Shown piece after piece: positions 26,467 through 37,790 of a stretch of 64,000 nucleotides of DNA. The translations under genes and the position numbers were made by a program. Numbering within the stretch: the first letter of the stretch is position 1; the number at the start of each line of letters is the position of its first letter. Below the pieces are notes generated by a model. It was not told where the DNA came from and ran no database searches. It was given only the letters and a program-made list of their open reading frames with translations. This DNA is from Streptomyces diastaticus subsp. diastaticus. GTDB taxonomy: Bacteria; Actinomycetota; Actinomycetes; Streptomycetales; Streptomycetaceae. The stretch is from NCBI RefSeq assembly GCF_011170125.1, contig NZ_BLLN01000005.1:310001-374000 (forward strand). Reading direction: 5' to 3'.

Positions 26467-27348
26467 TCAGCAGTACAGGTTGGCGCCGGTGGTGGTGCCG
26501 AGGATCTGGGCGAAGGAGGTGAACTTGTCGACGCGGCTCTGGACCTGGGCCGGGTTGCCGCCGTCGCACTCGATCGAGCCGTTGATCGAGCGGATCGTCT
26601 CGCCGAAGCCGTGGCCGTTCACGATGGCGTTGTGCGCGGTCATGGTGCCCGGGCCGTTCTGGGTGTTCCAGTACCACAGGCCGGTCCGCCAGGCGACGGA
26701 GGCGTTCTGCTCGACCAGGTAGGGGTTGTTCAGCAGGTCGATGCCGAGGGCGTCGCCGGCGGCCTTGTAGTTGTAGTTCCAGCTGAGCTGGACGGGACCG
26801 CGCCCGTAGTAGGCGGCCTGGCCGGCCGGGCAGCCGTAGGGCTTGCCGCCGTCGCAGTAGTGGGGGTAGTTGGCCTCGTTGGTCTCCTTGATGTGCACCA
26901 GGCCACCGGTCTCGTGGTGGACGTTGGCGAGGAAGGCGGCCGCCTCGCGCTTCTTGACCTCGTCGCTGCCGGTGTTGGCGAAGGCGGGGTAGGAGCTGAG
27001 GGCGGCGGTCAGGCCGCTGTAGGTGTAGAAGGAGTTCCGGTTCGGGAACATCTGGTTGAACTGGGCCTCGCTCACGACGAAGCCGCCGGGCTGTTCCCCG
27101 CCCCCGCCGGTGCCGCAGGCGCCCTGGTCGGCCCAGACGTCGGAGCTGCCCGGCCGCTCGTTCTGCGTCCACCACTTCGCGGTGTAGTTGCGGCCGTCGT
27201 ACGAGGCGCTCTGGCCGCCGGTGTAGACGGCGGTGGCGTTCCAGGCGGTGGCGCAGGTGGCGGCCTGTGCGGTGGCCGCGGGGAGGACGACGAGCGCCGC
27301 GACGACCGCGCTCAGCGCGATCAGCAGGCTCATGACACGTCGGATCAC
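26467..27348 (-). CDS. Secreted GH19 chitinase with N-terminal CBM5/12
   Basis: A 293-residue secreted chitinase. The signal peptide ends AQA (1-29). A chitin-binding module of family 5/12 follows (about 31-79: WNATAVYTGGQSASYDGRNY, AKWWTQNERPG, with Cys at 32 and 78). A Gly/Gln linker leads to the GH19 domain (about 90-293) with E146 in HHETGG and E155 in KETNEANY as the catalytic pair, and YYGRGPVQLSWNYNYK. It is strongly similar to the catalytic domain at 3.7 kb, so the two are paralogues. The native promoter and dre element are now 930 bp upstream because an IS sits 64 bp before the start codon; expression must come from the IS side or read-through. Confidence 0.95.
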   Translation of the reverse strand: MIRRVMSLLIALSAVVAALVVLPAATAQAATCATAWNATAVYTGGQSASYDGRNYTAKWWTQNERPGSSDVWADQGACGTGGGGEQPGGFVVSEAQFNQMFPNRNSFYTYSGLTAALSSYPAFANTGSDEVKKREAAAFLANVHHETGGLVHIKETNEANYPHYCDGGKPYGCPAGQAAYYGRGPVQLSWNYNYKAAGDALGIDLLNNPYLVEQNASVAWRTGLWYWNTQNGPGTMTAHNAIVNGHGFGETIRSINGSIECDGGNPAQVQSRVDKFTSFAQILGTTTGANLYC

Positions 27349-29675: not shown

Positions 29676-31697
29676 TTACGGCAGGACGATCTTCCAGCTG
29701 TTGACGCGGCCGGTGTCCGAGCGGGCGGTGTCCTGGACGCGGAGCTTCCAGGTGCCGTTGGCGGTCTGCGCGGAGGCGTTGACGGTGTAGGTCTCCTGGA
29801 CGTCGTCGGCCGAGTCCGAGGAGCTGGCGTTCTTCAGCCGGTAGGCCGTGCCGTCGGGGCCGACCAGGTCGATGACGAGGTCGCCGCGCCAGGTGTGGCT
29901 GATGTCGACGGTGACCCGGAGGGCGGCGGGGGCGTTGCCGGCGCGGTTCGCGACGGTGATGTCCGAGGTGACCGCGGCGCCGGCGTCGGGGATGGCGACG
30001 GGCGTGGTGTTCTCGAAGGTGGTGCCGCCGCTGCCGCCGCCGGAGCGGGCGCCGACTGCCACGCCGGCCCAGGCGTCCTGGACGGCCTTGTACTCGGCGC
30101 TGCTGGTGCCGTACAGCTCGCCGGCGACGGCCAGGGTGCCGGTGCGGGCGCCTGCGTAGTTGGTGGTGGAGGTGAACTTGGTGGTGAGGGCCTTGAACCA
30201 GATCAGCGCGGCCTTGTCGCGGCCGATGCCGGTGACGGGCAGGCCGTCGGCGGTCGGCGAGTCGTAGCTGACGCCGTTGACCGTCCTGGCCCCGCTGCCC
30301 TCGGAGAGGAGGTAGAAGAAGTGGTTGGCCGGGCCCGAGGAGTAGTGGACGTCGACGGAGCCGATGCCGGAGTACCAGGAGTCCTTGGACTTGCCGTCGC
30401 GGGAGGGCTTGTCCATGTACCGCAGCGGGGTGCCGTCGCCGTTGATGTCGATCTTCTCGCCGATGAGGTAGTCGCCCTTGTCGGCGGCGTTGTTCTCGTG
30501 GAACTCGACGGCGGTGGCGAGGATGTCGCTGGTCGCCTCGTTGAGGCCGCCGGACTCGCCGGAGTAGACGAGCCTGGCGGTGACGGAGGTCAGGCCGTGG
30601 GTCATCTCGTGGGCGGCGACGTCGAGCGAGGTGAGCGGCTTGGCGTTGCCGGCGCCGTCGCCGTAGGTCATGCAGAAGCAGCTGTCCTGCCAGAAGGCGT
30701 TGACGTAGTTGTTGCCGTAGTGGACGCGGGAGTAGGCCCCGGCGCCGTCACCCCGGATGCCGGAGCGGCCGTGGACGTCCTTGTAGTAGTCCCAGGTGGC
30801 CTGCGCGCCGTAGGCGGCGTCGGCGGCGGCGGTCTCGGTGTTGCTCGCCCGGCCGTTGCCCCAGACGTCGTCGGGGCCGGAGAAGAGGGTGCCGGTGCCC
30901 GAGGTGGAGCGGTTGAGGTTGTTGGTGCGGTGGTTGCCGCGCCCGGCGTCGGTCAGGTTCCAGGTGGAGCCGGACCTGGTGCTGCCGAGGGTGACGGTGC
31001 CGCTGTACCGGGTGTTGCCGGTGCCGTTCTCGACGGCCTGCCACTCGTGGAGCTTCTCGCCGGTGGCGGCGTCGGTGACGACGTGCAGTTCGTTGGGGGT
31101 GCCGTCGTGCTGGAGTCCGCCGACCACCGTCTCGAAGGCGAGGACGGGCTTGCCGTCGGCGTTCCACACCACCTGGCGGGGCGCGCCGTCGGTGGTGGCC
31201 TTCTCGGCGTCGTGCGCCTCGGCGGCGTGCAGCGCCTGCTTCCTCGCGGCCGACGGGGCGATCTCCGCCTCGGTGGCGATGCCCTTGAGGGCGTTGCGGG
31301 ACGCCTTGGTCACCGTCGCGGGGGTGCCGTCGGGGGCGGCGGCGACCACGAGGTCGCCGCCGAGGACCGGCAGCCCGGCCCAGGTGCGCTCGTAGCGGGT
31401 GTGCAGGGTGCCGTCCCGGTCCTTGACGACGTCGCGGACCAGGAGTCTCTCCTTCTCGCCCAGGCCGAGTTCGGCGGCGACGGAGCCGGTCTTCGCCTCG
31501 GCGGCGCGGATCAGCGCGGCGCGCTGGGCCGGGCTGACGTCGGCGGGGAGGGCGCCGGTGCGCGCGGCGGCGGGTTCGGCGGCCGGTGCGGGGTCGGCCG
31601 CGGCCGCCGGGGCCGTGGTAGCGGTGACGGCGAGCAGCACGGCGGCGGCGAGGGCGCCGCCGGCGACGCCACGCCGGTGGGAGGTGGGTCTCAACAC
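29676..31697 (-). CDS. Secreted M4 (thermolysin-like) metalloprotease with P domain
   Basis: A 673-residue preproenzyme. A signal peptide (1-34) is followed by an FTP/PepSY-type propeptide (about 45-215: YERTWAGLPVLGGDLVVAA) that normally inhibits and folds the catalytic part. The M4 domain (about 225-540) has zinc ligands in AAHEMTHGL and the Glu of GGLNEATSDI, and the catalytic His in DVHYSSGPANHFFYLL. After a Gly/Ser linker (GGGSGG) comes a proprotein-convertase P domain (about 560-673: ISHTWRGDLVIDLVGPDGT) that is usually cleaved or helps stability. The GTG at 31697 follows AAGGAG. It is divergent from the sigma-factor module at 32.3 kb, which could sense envelope or extracellular conditions that involve it. 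Confidence 0.95.
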   Translation of the reverse strand: MLRPTSHRRGVAGGALAAAVLLAVTATTAPAAAADPAPAAEPAAARTGALPADVSPAQRAALIRAAEAKTGSVAAELGLGEKERLLVRDVVKDRDGTLHTRYERTWAGLPVLGGDLVVAAAPDGTPATVTKASRNALKGIATEAEIAPSAARKQALHAAEAHDAEKATTDGAPRQVVWNADGKPVLAFETVVGGLQHDGTPNELHVVTDAATGEKLHEWQAVENGTGNTRYSGTVTLGSTRSGSTWNLTDAGRGNHRTNNLNRSTSGTGTLFSGPDDVWGNGRASNTETAAADAAYGAQATWDYYKDVHGRSGIRGDGAGAYSRVHYGNNYVNAFWQDSCFCMTYGDGAGNAKPLTSLDVAAHEMTHGLTSVTARLVYSGESGGLNEATSDILATAVEFHENNAADKGDYLIGEKIDINGDGTPLRYMDKPSRDGKSKDSWYSGIGSVDVHYSSGPANHFFYLLSEGSGARTVNGVSYDSPTADGLPVTGIGRDKAALIWFKALTTKFTSTTNYAGARTGTLAVAGELYGTSSAEYKAVQDAWAGVAVGARSGGGSGGTTFENTTPVAIPDAGAAVTSDITVANRAGNAPAALRVTVDISHTWRGDLVIDLVGPDGTAYRLKNASSSDSADDVQETYTVNASAQTANGTWKLRVQDTARSDTGRVNSWKIVLP

Positions 31698-32339
31698 GGA
31701 CTCCTTCTGCGTGACCGCGGGTGCGCGGTCCGGGGGTGACGGGGCGGCGGGTGGCCGTCCCCGGGCAGAACGGAAAGCGGAGGAACACCGTGGGGGGAGG
31801 GCCGCGTGGCGGTGGGGCCGTGGGGTGCCGCGCGGCGGCCGAGGGGAAGATTCGCAGAGCCGGCCGCTCCTGTCAGGTGCGCGTCAACTAAATGGCCGGA
31901 TCGCGTCCGCGCCGACGGCCCCGGCCCGGACGCGGCACCGGTCGTCCCCGGGGTTGTCCGCCAGGTCGCCGCCGACCGGCCCGGAGCTGACGTGCGGCCG
32001 GCGCCGAGGCGGAACCCCGGACACGGCCACCGCGAGGCGGGGGCGGCGGGGTGCACGCCGCCTGCCGCGTACGGCCTTACCGCCCGGCGGCCCTCACCTC
32101 GCTTCCCCACCGCCCGTGTCCGCGCGCGAGCCGGCGCCGGAACGGTTCCGTCCAGATCCCGTCCGGCCGGAAAGCGCCCCTGGCCGCCGCATCCGGCCAC
32201 CGGCGCCCGAAAAAGATCCGGAACCGTGCAACCTCCCGCCCGCCGCCGGGGTGAGTAGGGCGAGGAGTCCACCTCGACCCGTGCCGGGGAGCGCCGATGC
32301 CCCGGGACGGCCGTACGCCACGCAGATCCGGGGAACACC
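31698..32339. other. 642-bp divergent intergenic region
   Basis: No gene is supported between the M4 protease and the secreted-protein gene. A TTGACG reading leftward near 31888 (within the AT-rich CATTTAGTTGACG) could be the protease -35 but a matching -10 is unclear. The right part must hold the promoter of the 32.3-kb module. Confidence 0.5.
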
Positions 32340-32840
32340 ATGCCGAAGAGACCACTCGTCCCAGCAGCCGCCCTCGTGCTGGCCGTCACCGGCCTGCTGG
32401 TGCCCGGGGCGGCTCACGCGGCCGAGGCCCGGCCGGCGGCCTCGTCCTGGAGCCGGTCCGCCGTCGTGGTGGCGCCCGGCGAGAAGCTGGAGCTGGGGCA
32501 CGGGTACGCCATGACGCTCACCCGCGAGGAGCGGTGCGTCGGTTCGGCGGGCGGGCGCATCTGCAAGAGCGTCACCGACGGCAACCAGCCGGCCGGCACC
32601 GTCAGCCTCCAGAGCTTCGGCGAGGAGGGCCGCACGCTGTACTCGCCGCTCTACGTCGGCCCGGGCCGCGCCGCCCGGATGACCGTCACCGCCGCCGGCC
32701 GGACCCTGGAGGCGCGGGTGGTCGCACTGGCCGGACGTCCCGGCTACGCCACCGGGTACGTCTGGAGCGCGGCCGAGGACCCCGCCGACCGGACCGTGAC
32801 CGTCTACGACGCCACCGGCCGTGTCCTCGCCCGATACTGA
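32340..32840 (+). CDS. Secreted protein sharing the anti-sigma ectodomain
   Basis: A 166-residue exported protein. The signal peptide ends AAHA (1-27). The mature part is a single domain (about 47-166): GEKLELGHGYAMTL, two cysteines (C66, C75) that could pair, CKSVTDGNQPAGTVSLQ, LYVGPGRAARMTV, and YATGYVWSAAEDPADRTVTV. The same domain, with the same cysteine spacing region and near-identical CKSVTDGNQP and GTVSLQ blocks, forms the outer part of the membrane protein encoded two genes downstream. No named family was recognised. It is followed by the sigma factor gene, which begins 43 bases after (or overlaps by 20, depending on its start). A role as ligand, decoy or co-receptor for the sensor is an inference. 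Confidence 0.85.
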   Translation: MPKRPLVPAAALVLAVTGLLVPGAAHAAEARPAASSWSRSAVVVAPGEKLELGHGYAMTLTREERCVGSAGGRICKSVTDGNQPAGTVSLQSFGEEGRTLYSPLYVGPGRAARMTVTAAGRTLEARVVALAGRPGYATGYVWSAAEDPADRTVTVYDATGRVLARY

Positions 32841-32883
32841 CCTGACGTCGCCGAGGCACCCGGCGCGGCTCCCGGAAAGGGCC

Positions 32884-33438
32884 GTGCCGGGGTTCCGGCC
32901 TGCCCGGACGGACTCCTCGCCGGATTTCGAGACCTTCGCCGCCGCCCGCTGGCCGGGGCTGCTGAGGACCGCTTACCTGCTGACCGGGGACCATCACGAG
33001 GCGGAGGACCTGGTACAGGTGACGCTGGCCAAGCTCTACCCGGCGTGGCCCCGGGTGCGGGGCCTGGACGAGCCCGACGCGTACGTGCGGCGCGCGCTGG
33101 TCAACAACAACCTCAGCCGGTTCCGCAAGCGGCGGGTGGTGCAGCTCCTCACGTCGAGGCTGCCCGAGCGGGCGCAGGAGGGCGGCGCGGCCCGTACCGA
33201 GGAGCGCTCCCTGCTGCTGGAGGCGCTCGGCACCCTGCCGCCCCGGCAGCGCGCGGTGGTCGTCCTGCGGTACTGGGAGGACCTCAGCGAGCAGCAGACG
33301 GCCGAGGTGCTGGGCTGCTCCCCGGGCAATGTGAAGAGCCAGGCCAGCCGGGGCCTGCGCAAGCTCCGGGACCACCCGGCGCTGGCGGAGTTCCAGCCCC
33401 GCCCCGGACGGGAGGAGCCCGCCGATGAACGCCTCTGA
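32884..33438 (+). CDS. SigE-family ECF RNA polymerase sigma factor
   Basis: A 184-residue extracytoplasmic-function sigma factor. Region 2 (about 15-80) has FAAARWPGLLRTAYLLTGDH and DLVQVTLAKLYPAW, which recognise the -10. Region 4 (about 115-165) has LPPRQRAVVVLRYWEDLSEQ and LGCSPGNVKSQASRGLRKL, the helix-turn-helix for the -35. The GTG at 32884 is preferred because GGAAAGG lies just upstream; a GTG at 32821, inside the preceding gene, would add 21 residues without homology. The next gene, an anti-sigma-like membrane protein, starts inside its 3' end (14-bp overlap), so the pair is translationally coupled. Released sigma factor probably autoregulates the three-gene unit. Confidence 0.9.
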   Translation: MPGFRPARTDSSPDFETFAAARWPGLLRTAYLLTGDHHEAEDLVQVTLAKLYPAWPRVRGLDEPDAYVRRALVNNNLSRFRKRRVVQLLTSRLPERAQEGGAARTEERSLLLEALGTLPPRQRAVVVLRYWEDLSEQQTAEVLGCSPGNVKSQASRGLRKLRDHPALAEFQPRPGREEPADERL

Positions 33439-34198
33439 TCCGGCCGGACGGGACGGCGTCCCGGCTGCCGGCGGGGCCGAGGACCAGGCGGCCCGGTCAC
33501 TGCGGCGTGCTCTGCACGGCGCCGCCGGCCCTCTGGTGCCGCCGCCCTACCCGGCGGCGCGCGTCCGCCGCATGGGCCGCCGCCGGGTACGCAACCGGCG
33601 GGTCGCGGCGGTGGTCCCGGCCACCGTGGCAGCCGTGCTGATGGTGGCCGCGGTGCCGCAGTGGCTCGGTTCCGGCACCGACCGGAGCCCCGCGGCGGCC
33701 GGTCCCGCTCCGTCCGCGACGCCCGGACCGGGCGGCGGCCCCACGCCGCTCCCGGAGGCCGCGCGGCCGCCCCGGCCGTCCGGCAACCCCTGGCCCGCCG
33801 TCCGGACGGCGGCGGCGGGTGAGCCGGTGGACGTCGGCCGCGGTCACCGGATGACGCTCGCCGGAAGTGAGGTGTGCCATCGCGACACGGGCGGGCCCGG
33901 TGGCGGTGTGGACAGCTGCAAGAGCGTCACCGACGGCAACCAGCCGACCGGGACGGTCAGCCTCCAGCAGTTCGGGGAGCTGGTCCGGCCTCTGTACATC
34001 GGCCCGGGACGGCCCGCCCGCATGACCGTGGAGACGGGCGGCGTGGTACACCGTGCACAGCTCCTGACCCTGGCGGGCGACCCGGGCTACGCGGTGGGCT
34101 ACACCTGGGCCGACCAGCCCCGCGACCCGTCGAACGAGCCGCCTCCGTCCGTCAAGGTCTACGACGCCGACGGCGAGGTGCTGGCGGAGTTCCCCTGA
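33425..34198 (+). CDS. Anti-sigma-like single-pass sensor with the secreted-protein domain
   Basis: A 257-residue membrane protein. The cytosolic N-terminus (1-58, ending ARVRRMGRRRVRNRR) would hold the sigma factor but lacks the HxxxCxxC zinc motif of ZAS anti-sigma factors. A transmembrane helix (about 61-79) is followed by a Pro/Gly-rich linker (83-120) and an external domain (about 132-257). This domain repeats the secreted protein of 32340: CKSVTDGNQPTGTVSLQ, LYIGPGRPARMTV, GYAVGYTWADQPRD, with cysteines C151 and C165. Position and coupling to the sigma gene make it the probable anti-sigma factor. How the ectodomain and its secreted copy communicate is unknown. Confidence 0.85.
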   Translation: MNASDPAGRDGVPAAGGAEDQAARSLRRALHGAAGPLVPPPYPAARVRRMGRRRVRNRRVAAVVPATVAAVLMVAAVPQWLGSGTDRSPAAAGPAPSATPGPGGGPTPLPEAARPPRPSGNPWPAVRTAAAGEPVDVGRGHRMTLAGSEVCHRDTGGPGGGVDSCKSVTDGNQPTGTVSLQQFGELVRPLYIGPGRPARMTVETGGVVHRAQLLTLAGDPGYAVGYTWADQPRDPSNEPPPSVKVYDADGEVLAEFP

Positions 34199-34280: not shown

Positions 34281-35837
34281 TCAGTCGTGCGGCACGGCGG
34301 GCGGTCCTACCGGCGCGGCCTGCTCCGCCGCCACCGGGCCCGACCTGCTCCGGTGCTTCCGGAGGAGAGCCGCGCCCCGCGCCACGAGCACCGCCGCCGC
34401 GGCCAGAGCGGTTCCCGCCGACCACACGAAGAGGGCCGGCCAGACATAGGTGATCTGCTCCAGCGTCCCGGCCCGGCGCATCAACAGGCCCAAGACGTCG
34501 TTCAGGTGGAAGAACAGCAGCACGGGCAGCAGGTACGGGACGAGGCGCAGGCCGAGGCGGAGCGGGCCGCGGCCGGCGCGCCGTGCCCACCTCCCGGCAC
34601 GGGCCACGGCACGTACCGCCAGGGCGAGGGCCGACAGCGTCAGCACGGCGAGAACCGGGTCGGCGGTGTCGGTGAAGGGGGCCCGCTCGGCCGGAGCCCG
34701 GCCTTCGGCGAGGTCGACCAGGCCGTCCACGAGGAGCGGGGCGTCGTCCCCGGAGACCATGCCGGTGTTGGTGACCACCGCGATGCCGACGCCGGACTCG
34801 GGGAGCAGGGTGGCCATGGAGTTGTGCGTGAAGAGGCTCCCCGTGTGCTCGATCCGCAGCGGCTGCCCGCTCTCCGCCCGCCGGTTCCACCCCATCCCGT
34901 ACGTCTGGCCGGGCGGCGGGGTGCGGGTGAGCCGGACCGCCTCGGCGGGCGCGACGCGGCGCCCGGTGGGCGAGATCCCGTCCGTGTGCTGCGCGATCAG
35001 CCATTTCCCCAGATCCTCGGCGGTGCTGACGACGCCGAAGGCGCCTGCGGTGAAGAGGCGGGGATGGGCGCGTTCCCAGGTCCGCCCGTAGGCCCGGACG
35101 TGCCCGCGGGCCGCGTCCGGCATGTCGGCGGTGGTGTCGGCGGTCTCGGTGCGGCTCATGCCGAGGGGCGCGAACAGCCGCTCACGCAGGTGTGCGGCGT
35201 ACGGGGTTCCGGTGGCGGCCTCGACGAGGCGGGCGGCGACGGCGTAGTTGGTGTTGTGGTAGCTCCAGGTCGTCCCGGGGTCTGCCGCGAGCCGGGTGCC
35301 ACGCAGCGCGACGACCGCCTCCTTGAGCGTGTGCGGCTGCGGGAGGACGAGGTCGGGGTGGGCCGAGTCGGCCATCCCCGAGGTCTGGTGGAGGAGTTGG
35401 CGCGGGGTGATGCGCTCTGCGCGGGCGTCCGCAGGGGCGAACTCGGGCAACTGGTCGTGGACCGGCCGGTCGAGGTCGACCCGTCCCTCTTCGGCCAGCC
35501 CGGTCACCGCCAAGGCGGTCATCGCCTTCGACAGGGAGGCCACCGGCACGGGGGTCCGGGCGGTCATCTCCTCCCCCGCCGCGGTGTGCCCGTAACCGGC
35601 GGCGAGGACCACTCGGTCGCCGCGGGTGACCGTCACCGTCGCGCCCGGCACTCCCGTCCGCTCCAGGTGGTCGCGGACGAAGCGGTCGGCTGAGGCCCGG
35701 TCGAGGACCGGCGCCCGGGCCGGGACGGCGTGGGCGGGCAGGGAGGACGGGACGAGCAGGGCGGCCGTCAGCAGGAGGCCTCCGACGAGTCGGGCCGGCC
35801 GGCGGTGACCGGGGGGACGGGGTTGGGGTGTGGTCAT
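34281..35837 (-). CDS. Beta-lactamase-fold serine hydrolase with membrane C-terminus
   Basis: A 518-residue class C beta-lactamase/DD-peptidase-like protein. A signal peptide (about 1-38, ending AHAV) precedes the beta-lactamase domain (about 48-390): SxxK is VASLSKAMTALAV, the YxN is YHNTNYAVAA, and the HxG is IEHTGSLFTHN. After it, three or four transmembrane helices (about 400-495: VLAVLTLSALALAVRAVARA, LVPYLLPVLLFFHLNDVLGL, WPALFVWSAGTALAAAAVLV) anchor it to the membrane. This architecture is common in actinobacteria and its members are esterases, D-amino-peptidases or PG-modifying enzymes. The ATG at 35837 is chosen because the signal peptide starts there. It is divergent from a two-component system (start 35947), which probably controls it. 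Confidence 0.88.
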   Translation of the reverse strand: MTTPQPRPPGHRRPARLVGGLLLTAALLVPSSLPAHAVPARAPVLDRASADRFVRDHLERTGVPGATVTVTRGDRVVLAAGYGHTAAGEEMTARTPVPVASLSKAMTALAVTGLAEEGRVDLDRPVHDQLPEFAPADARAERITPRQLLHQTSGMADSAHPDLVLPQPHTLKEAVVALRGTRLAADPGTTWSYHNTNYAVAARLVEAATGTPYAAHLRERLFAPLGMSRTETADTTADMPDAARGHVRAYGRTWERAHPRLFTAGAFGVVSTAEDLGKWLIAQHTDGISPTGRRVAPAEAVRLTRTPPPGQTYGMGWNRRAESGQPLRIEHTGSLFTHNSMATLLPESGVGIAVVTNTGMVSGDDAPLLVDGLVDLAEGRAPAERAPFTDTADPVLAVLTLSALALAVRAVARAGRWARRAGRGPLRLGLRLVPYLLPVLLFFHLNDVLGLLMRRAGTLEQITYVWPALFVWSAGTALAAAAVLVARGAALLRKHRSRSGPVAAEQAAPVGPPAVPHD

Positions 35838-35934
35838 GCCGGAGAGCCAACCGCGCGGCAGGGGGCGGGCGCAGTCGTGCGGGTGGGACGGAAAAGGTGG
35901 TGCCGGCACTACCGACCGGCCCCGGCCCGCTCCG

Positions 35935-35940
35935 TACTGT
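35935..35940 (+). promoter_or_regulatory. -10 element for leaderless kinase gene
   Basis: TACTGT lies seven bases before the ATG at 35947 with no ribosome binding site between, so the kinase transcript is probably leaderless. A convincing -35 was not seen. Confidence 0.5.
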
Positions 35941-35946
35941 CGGGAC

Positions 35947-37152
35947 ATGCACGCGCGCACGGCCTGGCAGGCCCTGGCCCACCGTCCCCTCGCCTTCCTC
36001 ACCACCGTCTGGCCGTGGCGGGCCCTGGCCTATCTGCTCTCCGGAGTGCTGGCGGGGGCGCTCACGCTCTCGGTCCTGGTCACCGGTCTGCTGGCCGGGC
36101 TGGTGCTGCTGCCGGTCGGGGTGGGGGCCGCCGTGCTGCTCGCCGTGGTCCTCGGTGGCGGAACGGTCGCCCGGGTGGAGCGTTGGCGGCTGCGGCTGGT
36201 CGACCTCGACCCGGCCACCGCCGATCACCGGCCCGTGGAGCAGCCGGGCGTGCGAGCCGGGTTGCGGGAGCGGCTGCGGGAGCGGCGTACCTGGCGGGAA
36301 CTGGGGTTCACGGCGGTCTCCATGACGGCACTGTGGTGGATGGACCTGCTCGTCCTCGCCTTCGCCCTGGCGCTGCCGGTGCTGTGTGTGACCGCGCCGC
36401 TGGACGACCCGGGCGCCTGGCCGTGGGTACTGATCGGTCTCGCCCTGATGCCCGCGGCGCCGTACACGATCACCGGCTGGGCCGGGGCACGGGCGGCGCT
36501 GACCCGGCTGATGCTCGCGCCGCGGGACACGGAGCTGACGGAGGTCCGCGCCTCGCGGACCAGGCTGGTCGGGGCCTTCGACGCAGAGCGGCGCAGGATC
36601 GAGCGGGATCTGCACGACGGCGCCCAGCAGCGGCTGGTGTCGGTCAACGTCATGCTGGGGCTGGCGCGGCTCGACGCCGGTCCCGAATCACCGCTCGGCC
36701 GACGGCTGGCCACCGTGCAGGGCGAGTTGACGACAGCCCTCGGGGAGCTGCGCGAGCTGAGCAGGGGCGTCCACCCCCGCGCGCTGACCGACCAGGGCCT
36801 GGCGGCGGCCCTCACCAACCTCACCGCCCGCTCGCCGCTCCCGGTCTCCGTGGATGTGCTGCTGCCGGGCCCGCTGCCCGCGCCGGTCGCGAGCACCGCG
36901 TACTTCGTGGTCGCCGAGGCCCTGGCCAACGCGACGAAGCACAGCGGCGCCGACCGGGCCGAGGTGCGGGCGCGGCTGCGCACGGACACGCTCGTGGTCA
37001 CCGTCCGCGACGACGGGGGCGGGGGCGCGGACCCCACCGGGTGCGGCCTGACGGGGCTGGCCGACCGGGTGGCGGCGGCCGACGGCATACTGCGGCTGTC
37101 CAGCCCGCACGGCGGGCCCACCCTGCTCCACGTGGAGATCCCGTGTCACTGA
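35947..37152 (+). CDS. Sensor histidine kinase with four-helix sensor and HisKA_3
   Basis: A 401-residue membrane kinase. The N-terminal half contains four transmembrane helices in two pairs (about 26-70 and 122-178), matching the DUF/sensor_2 putative sensor domain of Streptomyces kinases. H223 in RRRIERDLHDGAQQRL is the phospho-acceptor in the HisKA_3 helix. The ATPase domain (about 310-401) has VAEALANATKHSGADRAEV and the DDGGGGADPTGCGLTGL glycine box. The transcript appears leaderless. The stop overlaps the response regulator start by 10 bases. No extracellular domain, so the signal is sensed in the membrane; the divergent beta-lactamase-like gene suggests a cell-wall stimulus. Confidence 0.9.
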   Translation: MHARTAWQALAHRPLAFLTTVWPWRALAYLLSGVLAGALTLSVLVTGLLAGLVLLPVGVGAAVLLAVVLGGGTVARVERWRLRLVDLDPATADHRPVEQPGVRAGLRERLRERRTWRELGFTAVSMTALWWMDLLVLAFALALPVLCVTAPLDDPGAWPWVLIGLALMPAAPYTITGWAGARAALTRLMLAPRDTELTEVRASRTRLVGAFDAERRRIERDLHDGAQQRLVSVNVMLGLARLDAGPESPLGRRLATVQGELTTALGELRELSRGVHPRALTDQGLAAALTNLTARSPLPVSVDVLLPGPLPAPVASTAYFVVAEALANATKHSGADRAEVRARLRTDTLVVTVRDDGGGGADPTGCGLTGLADRVAAADGILRLSSPHGGPTLLHVEIPCH

Positions 37153-37790
37153 AGGTCGTGGTCGCCGAGGACGCGGCGCTGATGCGCGAGGGGCTGGTGG
37201 GCGTGCTGACCCGCTTCGGCCACCAGGTGTGCGCGGCGGTGGGGGACGCCGAGGCACTGATGGCGGCGGCCCGCGCGCACCGGCCGGACCTCGTCCTCAC
37301 CGACATCCGCATGCCGCCCGGCCTCGGTGACGACGGGCTGCGCGCCGCCGTCGCGCTCCGCCGCGACCGCCCCGAACTGCCGGTGCTCGTCCTCAGCCAG
37401 TACCTCGAACAGTCCTACGCCACCCACCTGCTGGACCTCGGCGGCCAGAGCGGCGTCGGCTACCTGCTGAAGGACCGGGTGGCCGCCGTCACCGAGTTCG
37501 CGGACGCCGTGGCCCAGGTGGCGGGCGGGGGAACGGTGCTGGACCCGGAGGTCGTACGGCAGTTGCTGCGGCGGCGGCAGGACCCGCTGGGCCGGCTGAC
37601 GCCCCGCGAGCGCGAGGTGCTCGCCCTGATGGCCGAGGGCCGCTCCAACGCGGCCATCGCCCGCTCCCTGTACGTCTCGGTGGCCGCGGTCAACAAGCAC
37701 ATCGGCAGCATCCTGCAACGCCTCGACCTCCCGGTGGACGGCGACGCCCACCGGCGGGTGCTGGCGGTACTGGCCTACCTCCGGAACTGA
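37143..37790 (+). CDS. NarL/LuxR-family response regulator
   Basis: A 215-residue regulator paired with the kinase at 35947. The receiver domain (1-120) has acidic E9/D10 in VVVAEDAALM and the phospho-acceptor D54 in LVLTDIRMPPG; the switch Lys is in GYLLKDRVA. The C-terminal LuxR helix-turn-helix (about 150-205) reads LTPREREVLALMAEGRSNAA, then VAAVNKHIGSILQRL. The GTG at 37143 lies inside the kinase gene (10-bp overlap), so translation is coupled. Likely targets are the divergent serine hydrolase and its own operon. Confidence 0.93.
   Translation: MSLKVVVAEDAALMREGLVGVLTRFGHQVCAAVGDAEALMAAARAHRPDLVLTDIRMPPGLGDDGLRAAVALRRDRPELPVLVLSQYLEQSYATHLLDLGGQSGVGYLLKDRVAAVTEFADAVAQVAGGGTVLDPEVVRQLLRRRQDPLGRLTPREREVLALMAEGRSNAAIARSLYVSVAAVNKHIGSILQRLDLPVDGDAHRRVLAVLAYLRN

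Follow-up and report, generated by a model that had tools for sequence, protein, structure and literature searches.

Anatomy of a three-gene sigma factor module

The 64,000-nucleotide stretch of Streptomyces diastaticus subsp. diastaticus DNA analysed in this study (contig NZ_BLLN01000005.1, positions 310,001 to 374,000), hereafter referred to as the window, contains three genes, sec, sig and mem, which encode a secreted protein, an extracytoplasmic function (ECF) sigma factor and a single-pass membrane protein, respectively (Table 1). The tight unit described in the initial annotation was confirmed: all three genes are adjacent and on the + strand, with open reading frames where they had been placed and an overlap of 14 bp between sig and mem (33425-33438 in open reading frame coordinates). 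Counted from its first GTG, the sigma reading frame spans 32821-33438 on the + strand (205 aa); a start at GTG 32884, just upstream of which GGAAAGG was seen by eye, is more likely than one at GTG 32821 and leaves a gap of 43 bp between sec and sig. Assignment of the sigma factor to the SigE family held, with a TIGR02983 score of 198.5 bits against a cut-off of 141.55, and PF04542 and PF08281 were also above cut-off.

The hydropathy maximum of Sec at residues 6-24 corresponds to a signal peptide; inspection by eye found an AHA/AE site and no lipobox in this protein. Mem has one hydrophobic helix by hydropathy, in agreement with the single-pass topology proposed from its sequence. Its layout is that of membrane anti-sigma factors in general, comprising a co-encoded sigma factor, a cytosolic N-terminal segment, one transmembrane helix and an ectodomain, and Mem is, judging from these features, a probable anti-sigma factor restraining the sigma factor.

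Sec and the ectodomain of Mem had been proposed to be the same domain. Alignment of the two bears this out, with 49% identity over 145 columns and an E value of 9e-39, which rules out chance resemblance, and the blocks CKSVTDGNQP, GTVSLQ, LY(V/I)GPGR and GYxxGYxW are common to both. A search of the window's own genome at E <= 10 found no third copy of the domain, only sec and mem.

Table 1. Positions of the module, its parts and neighbouring genes in the window
Feature	Position	Strand	Remarks
sec, secreted 166-aa protein	32340..32840	+	Predicted signal peptide, about residues 1-27; predicted Ig-like domain, about residues 42-166
Domain of Sec (Ig-like by fold comparison)	32463..32837	+	Contains Cys66/Cys75; AlphaFold2 model and fold comparisons
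sig, SigE-family ECF sigma factor	32884..33438	+	TIGR02983; Pfam sigma regions 2 and 4
mem, 257-aa single-pass membrane protein, probable anti-sigma factor	33425..34198	+	
Cytosolic segment of Mem, residues 1-59	33425..33601	+	Without zinc motif
Transmembrane helix of Mem, residues 60-78	33602..33658	+	Hydropathy maximum 2.31
Ectodomain of Mem, same domain as Sec	33800..34195	+	Cys151/Cys165
Candidate 5'-UTR hairpin	32254..32286	+	RNA fold; covariation of the hairpin in relatives
GH19 chitinase with CBM5/12	26467-27348	-	
M4 thermolysin-like metallopeptidase with P-domain	29676-31697	-	
Beta-lactamase-fold serine hydrolase	34281-36005	-	
Sensor kinase/LuxR-type response regulator pair	35830-37790	+	

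Fold and family of the shared domain

AlphaFold2 modeling of residues 28-166 of Sec gave a confident all-beta domain (pLDDT 91.5, pTM 0.84), and the modeled domain appears Ig-like by fold comparison, without a close match in the PDB. A beta-trefoil was considered because designed trefoils were weakly matched by alignment A5 (best E 0.00086), and was rejected, as the fold comparisons show Ig-like rows instead; A5 and the alignment A6 used below are subsets of 105 and 86 sequences, respectively. No known Pfam or NCBIfam family covers either Sec or the Mem ectodomain in the window. Among the relatives scanned with Pfam, no family was found in more than one of 14 Mem or one of 15 Sec proteins, and the names given in source records are 'hypothetical' or 'uncharacterized' protein. 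The cysteine pair that the initial annotation counted among the shared features is present in both copies in the window but is not family-wide, since only four of 143 domains have two or more Cys; cysteines recur in some outlying members (P0045, L154-L156).

Cytosolic segment of Mem

The absence of a zinc anti-sigma motif from Mem was verified: HxxxCxxC does not occur in the protein, and residues 1-59 contain no Cys. The suggestion that the cytosolic contact with the sigma factor may be new was not upheld, because similar segments occur beside sigma genes in proteins without the domain and because zinc-free anti-sigma domains are common; about 48% of class I anti-sigma domains bind zinc (PMC7406223). 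The fused relatives described below and the recurrence of the N-terminal segment bear indirectly on whether Mem binds the sigma factor.

In the relatives of Mem, the consensus 'RLREALAxAAxxVTPSxVPLxAVERxGRxRRRRRR' precedes the helix. Four proteins from a second genus match Mem only around the cytosolic segment and the helix, have no match to the domain, and are each located beside a sigma gene similar to that of the window (118-154 bits). A hidden Markov model of the cytosolic segment detected three of these four proteins, at 27.2, 9.7 and 7.0 bits, two of which are weak scores. Based on these comparisons, the cytosolic segment of Mem looks like a modular partner segment. The window's Mem also matched the CU044_5270 family (NF038083) over residues 23-115 at 16.5 bits, below the curated cut-off of 100 bits, and weak matches to the same family were found in seven of the 14 Mem proteins scanned (best E 0.0023).

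Distribution and gene order

The domain search gathered 97 loci including the window, and removal of seven duplicates of the same contigs left 90. A scan of a species-level genome collection with the closer sub-alignment A4, in which the best 80 of 117 relatives were kept, yielded 78 distinct loci, 77 from Streptomyces and one from an Actinomycetota metagenome-assembled genome. Within the genus, Sec had matches at E <= 1e-5 in 17 of 150 genomes, its own included. In a sample of the phylum, for which 10 candidates were scored per genome so that distant members can be missed, four of 396 genomes matched, all from the window's genus; that this sample can miss members is demonstrated by a sister genus of the same order, the second genus mentioned above, in which six of 10 genomes had a domain match.

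The order sec-sig-mem on one strand was found in 54 of the 90 loci, the window among them, and sigma factor, membrane helix and domain were fused in one open reading frame in 14. The remaining loci comprised five with sec and sig (short loci in which mem was not seen), 11 with sec only, three with sig and mem, two with mem only, and one other. A sigma factor scoring >100 bits to that of the window, or a sigma fusion, was present in 76 of the 90 loci. These numbers do not show a secreted fold that is common but has no tie to sigma genes, the pattern named beforehand as the one that would speak against a signalling module. The module is real, conserved and recurrent and, as far as the literature search reached, undescribed.

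In the second genus, a sigma gene directly precedes mem in nine of 10 loci, the tenth of which begins at a contig end, and no sec was found within the stretches fetched. Therefore, sigma factor and Mem probably form the core of the module, and Sec is probably an addition. Locus L096 retains the start and signal peptide of sec, the promoter motif described below, the sigma gene and mem, while the Sec domain is deleted, which suggests that the circuit can persist without Sec.

The fused proteins (L048, L050, L097, L102, L103, L105, L108, L110, L112, L113, L122, L123, L124 and L127) were all found within 2.5 kb of a second sigma gene on the opposite strand (14 of 14 loci). In the rows of A6 that are shown, a large share of the linker joining regions 2 and 4 is missing from their sigma part, which may therefore be degenerate. 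A structural model of the L103 fusion (mean pLDDT 84.0, pTM 0.57) contained a helix at 144-162 and a long helix at 176-212 that runs through the membrane segment.

Promoter-like motif and hairpin upstream of sec

The promoter-like motif TGTCATCC-N15-GGNGTT was identified before sec in relatives of the window. In 48 of 70 sec genes it took the form TGTCATC[CG] or TGTC[AC]TCC followed, after a spacer of 15 (47 cases) or 14 (one case), by GGNGTT. A matrix was trained on 47 sec sites, and the score of each locus was computed with that locus, not its relatives, omitted. Scores of >=15 were obtained for 53 of 59 loci with sec and sigma factor, six of 11 with sec only, none of 14 fused loci and one of five sec-less loci, namely L096. 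When the full matrix was used to scan 2.18 million locus positions, leaving out the window, 62 strong sites were recovered, of which 59 lie before sec, one before the sec remnant of L096 and two elsewhere. Because the motif precedes sec so consistently and is found almost nowhere else in the scanned loci, Sec is probably the main output of the sigma factor. We infer from this placement that the motif is the sigma factor's own promoter and that Sec is its first product.

The exact motif was also searched for in 30 genomes, 18 of them domain-bearing. Seven of its 10 matches are the sec promoters of seven domain-bearing genomes, where the motif occurs once each and always before sec, and the other three are in two genomes in which no module was detected (two in G002, one in G013); the surrounding stretches contain no convincing module part (best E 0.008). 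Among the 10 sec genes that have no sigma gene nearby and enough downstream sequence, the motif is kept in L081, L086, L089, L092 and L109 and lost in L054, L055, L059, L068 and L091. A larger regulon was considered and rejected on the basis of this search and of a one-mismatch scan of 12 genomes, in which no clear second shared target was obtained. An identical one-mismatch site at G087:C16:93428 and G027:C1:1453516 may be either coding sequence that is conserved or a second target.

Behind the motif, 41 of the 70 loci carry the loop sequence of a promoter-proximal hairpin, GGGTGGAG-AGGCGCC-CTCCACCC, located for example at L079:5705-5738. The covariation analysis covered 28 of the 41 loop-bearing upstream regions; the other 13, most with a longer loop and some near-identical, were left out, so that the resulting counts lean towards structure. 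In the 28 aligned regions, the loop is nearly invariant and the stem shows compensatory changes, with 10 cells changed on both sides versus 2.8 in shuffles. A candidate hairpin at the corresponding position in the window has a folding energy of -14.9 kcal/mol (z -2.44; two of 200 shuffles as good), and the loop sequence of the relatives is not found in the window. The window's nearest relatives are P0002-P0009, and a DNA search gave matches mostly confined to the sigma gene.

Concerted evolution of the Sec and Mem domains

In a tree of 143 domains, the Sec and Mem domains did not form two separate groups, and 26 label changes were counted over the classes Sec, Mem and fused. Well-supported branches forced at least 13 (Sec) and at least 14 (Mem) changes, the columns being few and the bootstrap unsettled. 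A 31-domain tree was likewise built for the grouping of the Sec and Mem domains. At fourfold sites, mean identity between the two domains was 0.62 within loci and 0.53 between loci, and the within-locus mean was reached in none of 2000 permutations. In 11 of the 54 complete loci, fourfold-site identity of sec and mem was 0.82-1.0, higher than any of the 2,860 values scored between loci, the largest of which was 0.81. Copying of the domain between sec and mem is clear from these comparisons in a fifth of complete loci.

The extent of the copied stretch was inspected in six pairs from among the most similar (L062, L073, L077, L079, L084 and L088). DNA homology is confined to the domain, beginning 9-12 bases before it and ending within about 30 bases of the mem end, and, judged by eye, signal peptides and membrane segments are each still of their own family type. 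This pattern fits gene conversion of the domain. In one clade of the midpoint-rooted tree, 37 Sec domains are interspersed with 10 Mem domains, as would be expected if sec had been copied into mem.

Selection was compared by means of omega (NG86, on GC-rich codons), for which 1152 of 1431 locus pairs passed the filter and 73 were close; these pairs are not independent. Median omega over the 73 close pairs was 0.21 for sig, 0.49 for sec and 0.73 for mem, so that the sensor copy of the domain changes fastest. Orphan sec genes compared with their nearest module copy had an omega of 0.31-0.50 in L055, L081, L086, L089, L091, L092 and L109, and of 0.68 in L054.

Proposed mechanism and alternatives

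Taken with the anatomy, conservation and motif placement established by the sequence comparisons, this concerted evolution fits a circuit of the following kind. The short N-terminal segment of Mem would hold the sigma factor at the membrane until an extracellular ligand meets the ectodomain, whereupon the sigma factor would be released, probably by proteolysis. The freed sigma factor would transcribe mainly its own operon, with sec as the first gene, and secreted Sec would bind the ligand of Mem and, as a soluble sponge, bring the signal to an end by negative feedback; it may also neutralise the ligand. Domain copying between the two genes would maintain the shared specificity. We tentatively favour this reading, in which Sec and the sensor bind one ligand and Sec serves as a feedback sponge or neutraliser, at somewhat less than even confidence. 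The corresponding description of the module, as an ECF sigma factor and membrane anti-sigma factor with an Ig-like sensor domain of no named family and a secreted second copy of that domain, is put forward equally tentatively.

That the two copies have overwritten each other in some species suggests that both recognise the same thing, and concerted evolution implies that the copies are best when alike, through either a common ligand or a common interface. The domain is found beside a sigma gene even where sec is missing (nine of 10 loci of the sister genus) and is fused to a sigma factor in 14 of the 90 loci, both in favour of the proposed circuit. The parallel sensor system near the module in relatives, described below, is also counted in its favour. 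Open frames of sec persist, mostly under constraint, where neither sigma gene nor mem is nearby, which mildly favours a role of Sec beyond the regulation of Mem.

Several observations weigh against the shared-ligand sponge. For 40 of the 54 sec/mem pairs, fourfold identity does not reach the 95th percentile of the values between loci, and the window's own pair, at 0.50, shows no recent copying. Amino acid identity of the two domains drops to 32-46% in some loci, including those of the S. scabiei group and with the minimum of 32% in L093, which makes a shared ligand doubtful there. Instead of conversion, the domain alone might have been duplicated anew, and copying between tandem paralogues can be neutral. 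The orphan sec genes of L059 and L068 evolve without visible constraint (omega about 1.06), and Sec has been lost in L096 and is absent from the fused and sister-genus forms. With regard to the promoter, 11 of the 18 domain-bearing genomes, including the window's own, lack the exact motif, and the motif of the relatives is not recognisable in the window (score -12.6).

The main rival, which we consider rather unlikely, is direct contact between Sec and Mem: using a homotypic Ig-like interface, Sec would cap the ectodomain or form a dimer with it and, as a co-inhibitor, shield the anti-sigma factor from cleavage, so that feedback would operate by contact and not by ligand removal. The Ig-like fold class is in keeping with such an interface, which would account for the identity of the domains and their concerted evolution no less well than binding of one ligand. 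However, sec open frames persist without sig and mem in 10 loci with at least 1.5 kb of downstream sequence, and a pure co-inhibitor leaves these orphans unexplained unless it acts in trans with a module elsewhere. Sec might instead be the signal itself, a secreted autoinducer whose binding to Mem would activate the sigma factor by positive feedback, its fast diversification leading to strain-specific self-recognition. The apparent position of Sec as the main output of the sigma factor's motif, the rate of change of the Mem domain, faster than those of Sec and the sigma factor, and the Mem domains nested in the Sec clade as if overwritten by Sec would all suit an autoinducer. The sec-less circuit, which exists and persists, and the low identity of Sec and Mem in some loci do not, and this explanation is judged improbable.

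Equally improbable is neutral homogenisation of tandem paralogues by gene conversion, with an envelope function of its own for Sec and a different ligand for Mem. The homologous stretches lie close together, recent copying is seen in only 11 to 14 of the 54 loci, and Sec and Mem have diverged strongly elsewhere, all of which neutrality would accommodate; the gene order, which has been retained repeatedly, and the motif, which still precedes sec in 53 of 59 loci, speak against it. The persistence of orphan sec genes is the observation that mildly favours the shared-ligand sponge over capping, autoinduction and neutral homogenisation. A self-recognition circuit, in which the sigma factor has as its near-only target a secreted Ig-like protein and the anti-sigma sensor recognises that protein through its own copy of the domain, is unlikely, though marginally less so than the last two alternatives. 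If it were true, a fast-diversifying sensor that is at times overwritten by the secreted copy would keep signal and receptor matched in each strain, much as in the evolution of paired receptors or kin recognition but in bacteria.

Relation to known systems

ECF sigma/anti-sigma pairs are a major route by which bacteria sense the outside, and the ligands of many remain to be found. Here, the sensor domain has a natural soluble counterpart; once purified, this protein can serve as bait, which makes the ligand question directly testable. To our knowledge, RsiV of Bacillus is the nearest described receptor-type anti-sigma factor. As in the module, an ECF sigma factor, sigma-V, is held by a single-pass anti-sigma factor that receives its ligand, in that case lysozyme, through the ectodomain (PMC4183432). 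The RsiV ectodomain belongs to DUF4163/DUF3298, whereas Sec and Mem of the window have no Pfam match, and a soluble twin is not mentioned for RsiV in the available part of that source.

In RsgI systems, ectodomains and secreted machinery share carbohydrate-binding modules, and the secreted partners are large enzymes. The likeness to RsgI of Clostridium thermocellum lies in anti-sigma ectodomains that sense substrates and resemble the secreted machinery under their control; in contrast, the secreted protein of the present module consists of nothing but the domain, and its gene comes first in the sigma operon. Fusions of sigma factor and membrane segment are known in ECF48, ECF52, ECF53 and IutY (PMC8999054, PMC5826349). 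The fused relatives of the module resemble ECF52 SCO4117 and IutY in joining sigma factor, membrane helix and extracellular domain in one protein. ECF52 differs in carrying a zinc finger and a carbohydrate-binding module (PMC5826349), and Pfam shows neither in fused L048 and L050, the two of 14 that were scanned.

RsbN, the partner of BldN in Streptomyces, is likewise a membrane-anchored anti-sigma factor outside class I, and the passages available from PMC8103513 and PMC7406223 do not mention a secreted twin of its ectodomain. SIGLEC11 and SIGLEC16 are paired receptors whose ectodomains are kept alike by gene conversion (PMC5701461); being eukaryotic and two receptors, they offer an evolutionary analogy only. 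Neither a secreted twin of an anti-sigma ectodomain nor concerted evolution of receptor ectodomains in a bacterial sigma factor system was found in searches of open-licence literature. On the present sequence evidence, the motif before sec and the concerted evolution of Sec and Mem are the features that are new here.

Neighbouring genes and a parallel sensor system

Genes around the module in the window are listed in Table 1. In 35 of the 90 loci, a second ECF sigma gene was observed near the module (for example, L050:5337-7691, L037:5286-7665 and L043:9483-10331); none was seen beside the module in the window. The membrane partner of this second sigma factor has a YkuD-like ectodomain in the two loci and one L058 stretch scanned. 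An L,D-transpeptidase with Big_10 and YkuD domains is encoded near the second sigma gene in the three loci scanned, and THGC was recognised by eye in L050. A YkuD-like sensor near an L,D-transpeptidase resembles the module in pairing a sensor with a similar secreted effector, and hints at a more general rule by which sensors are built from copies of the effectors that they control.

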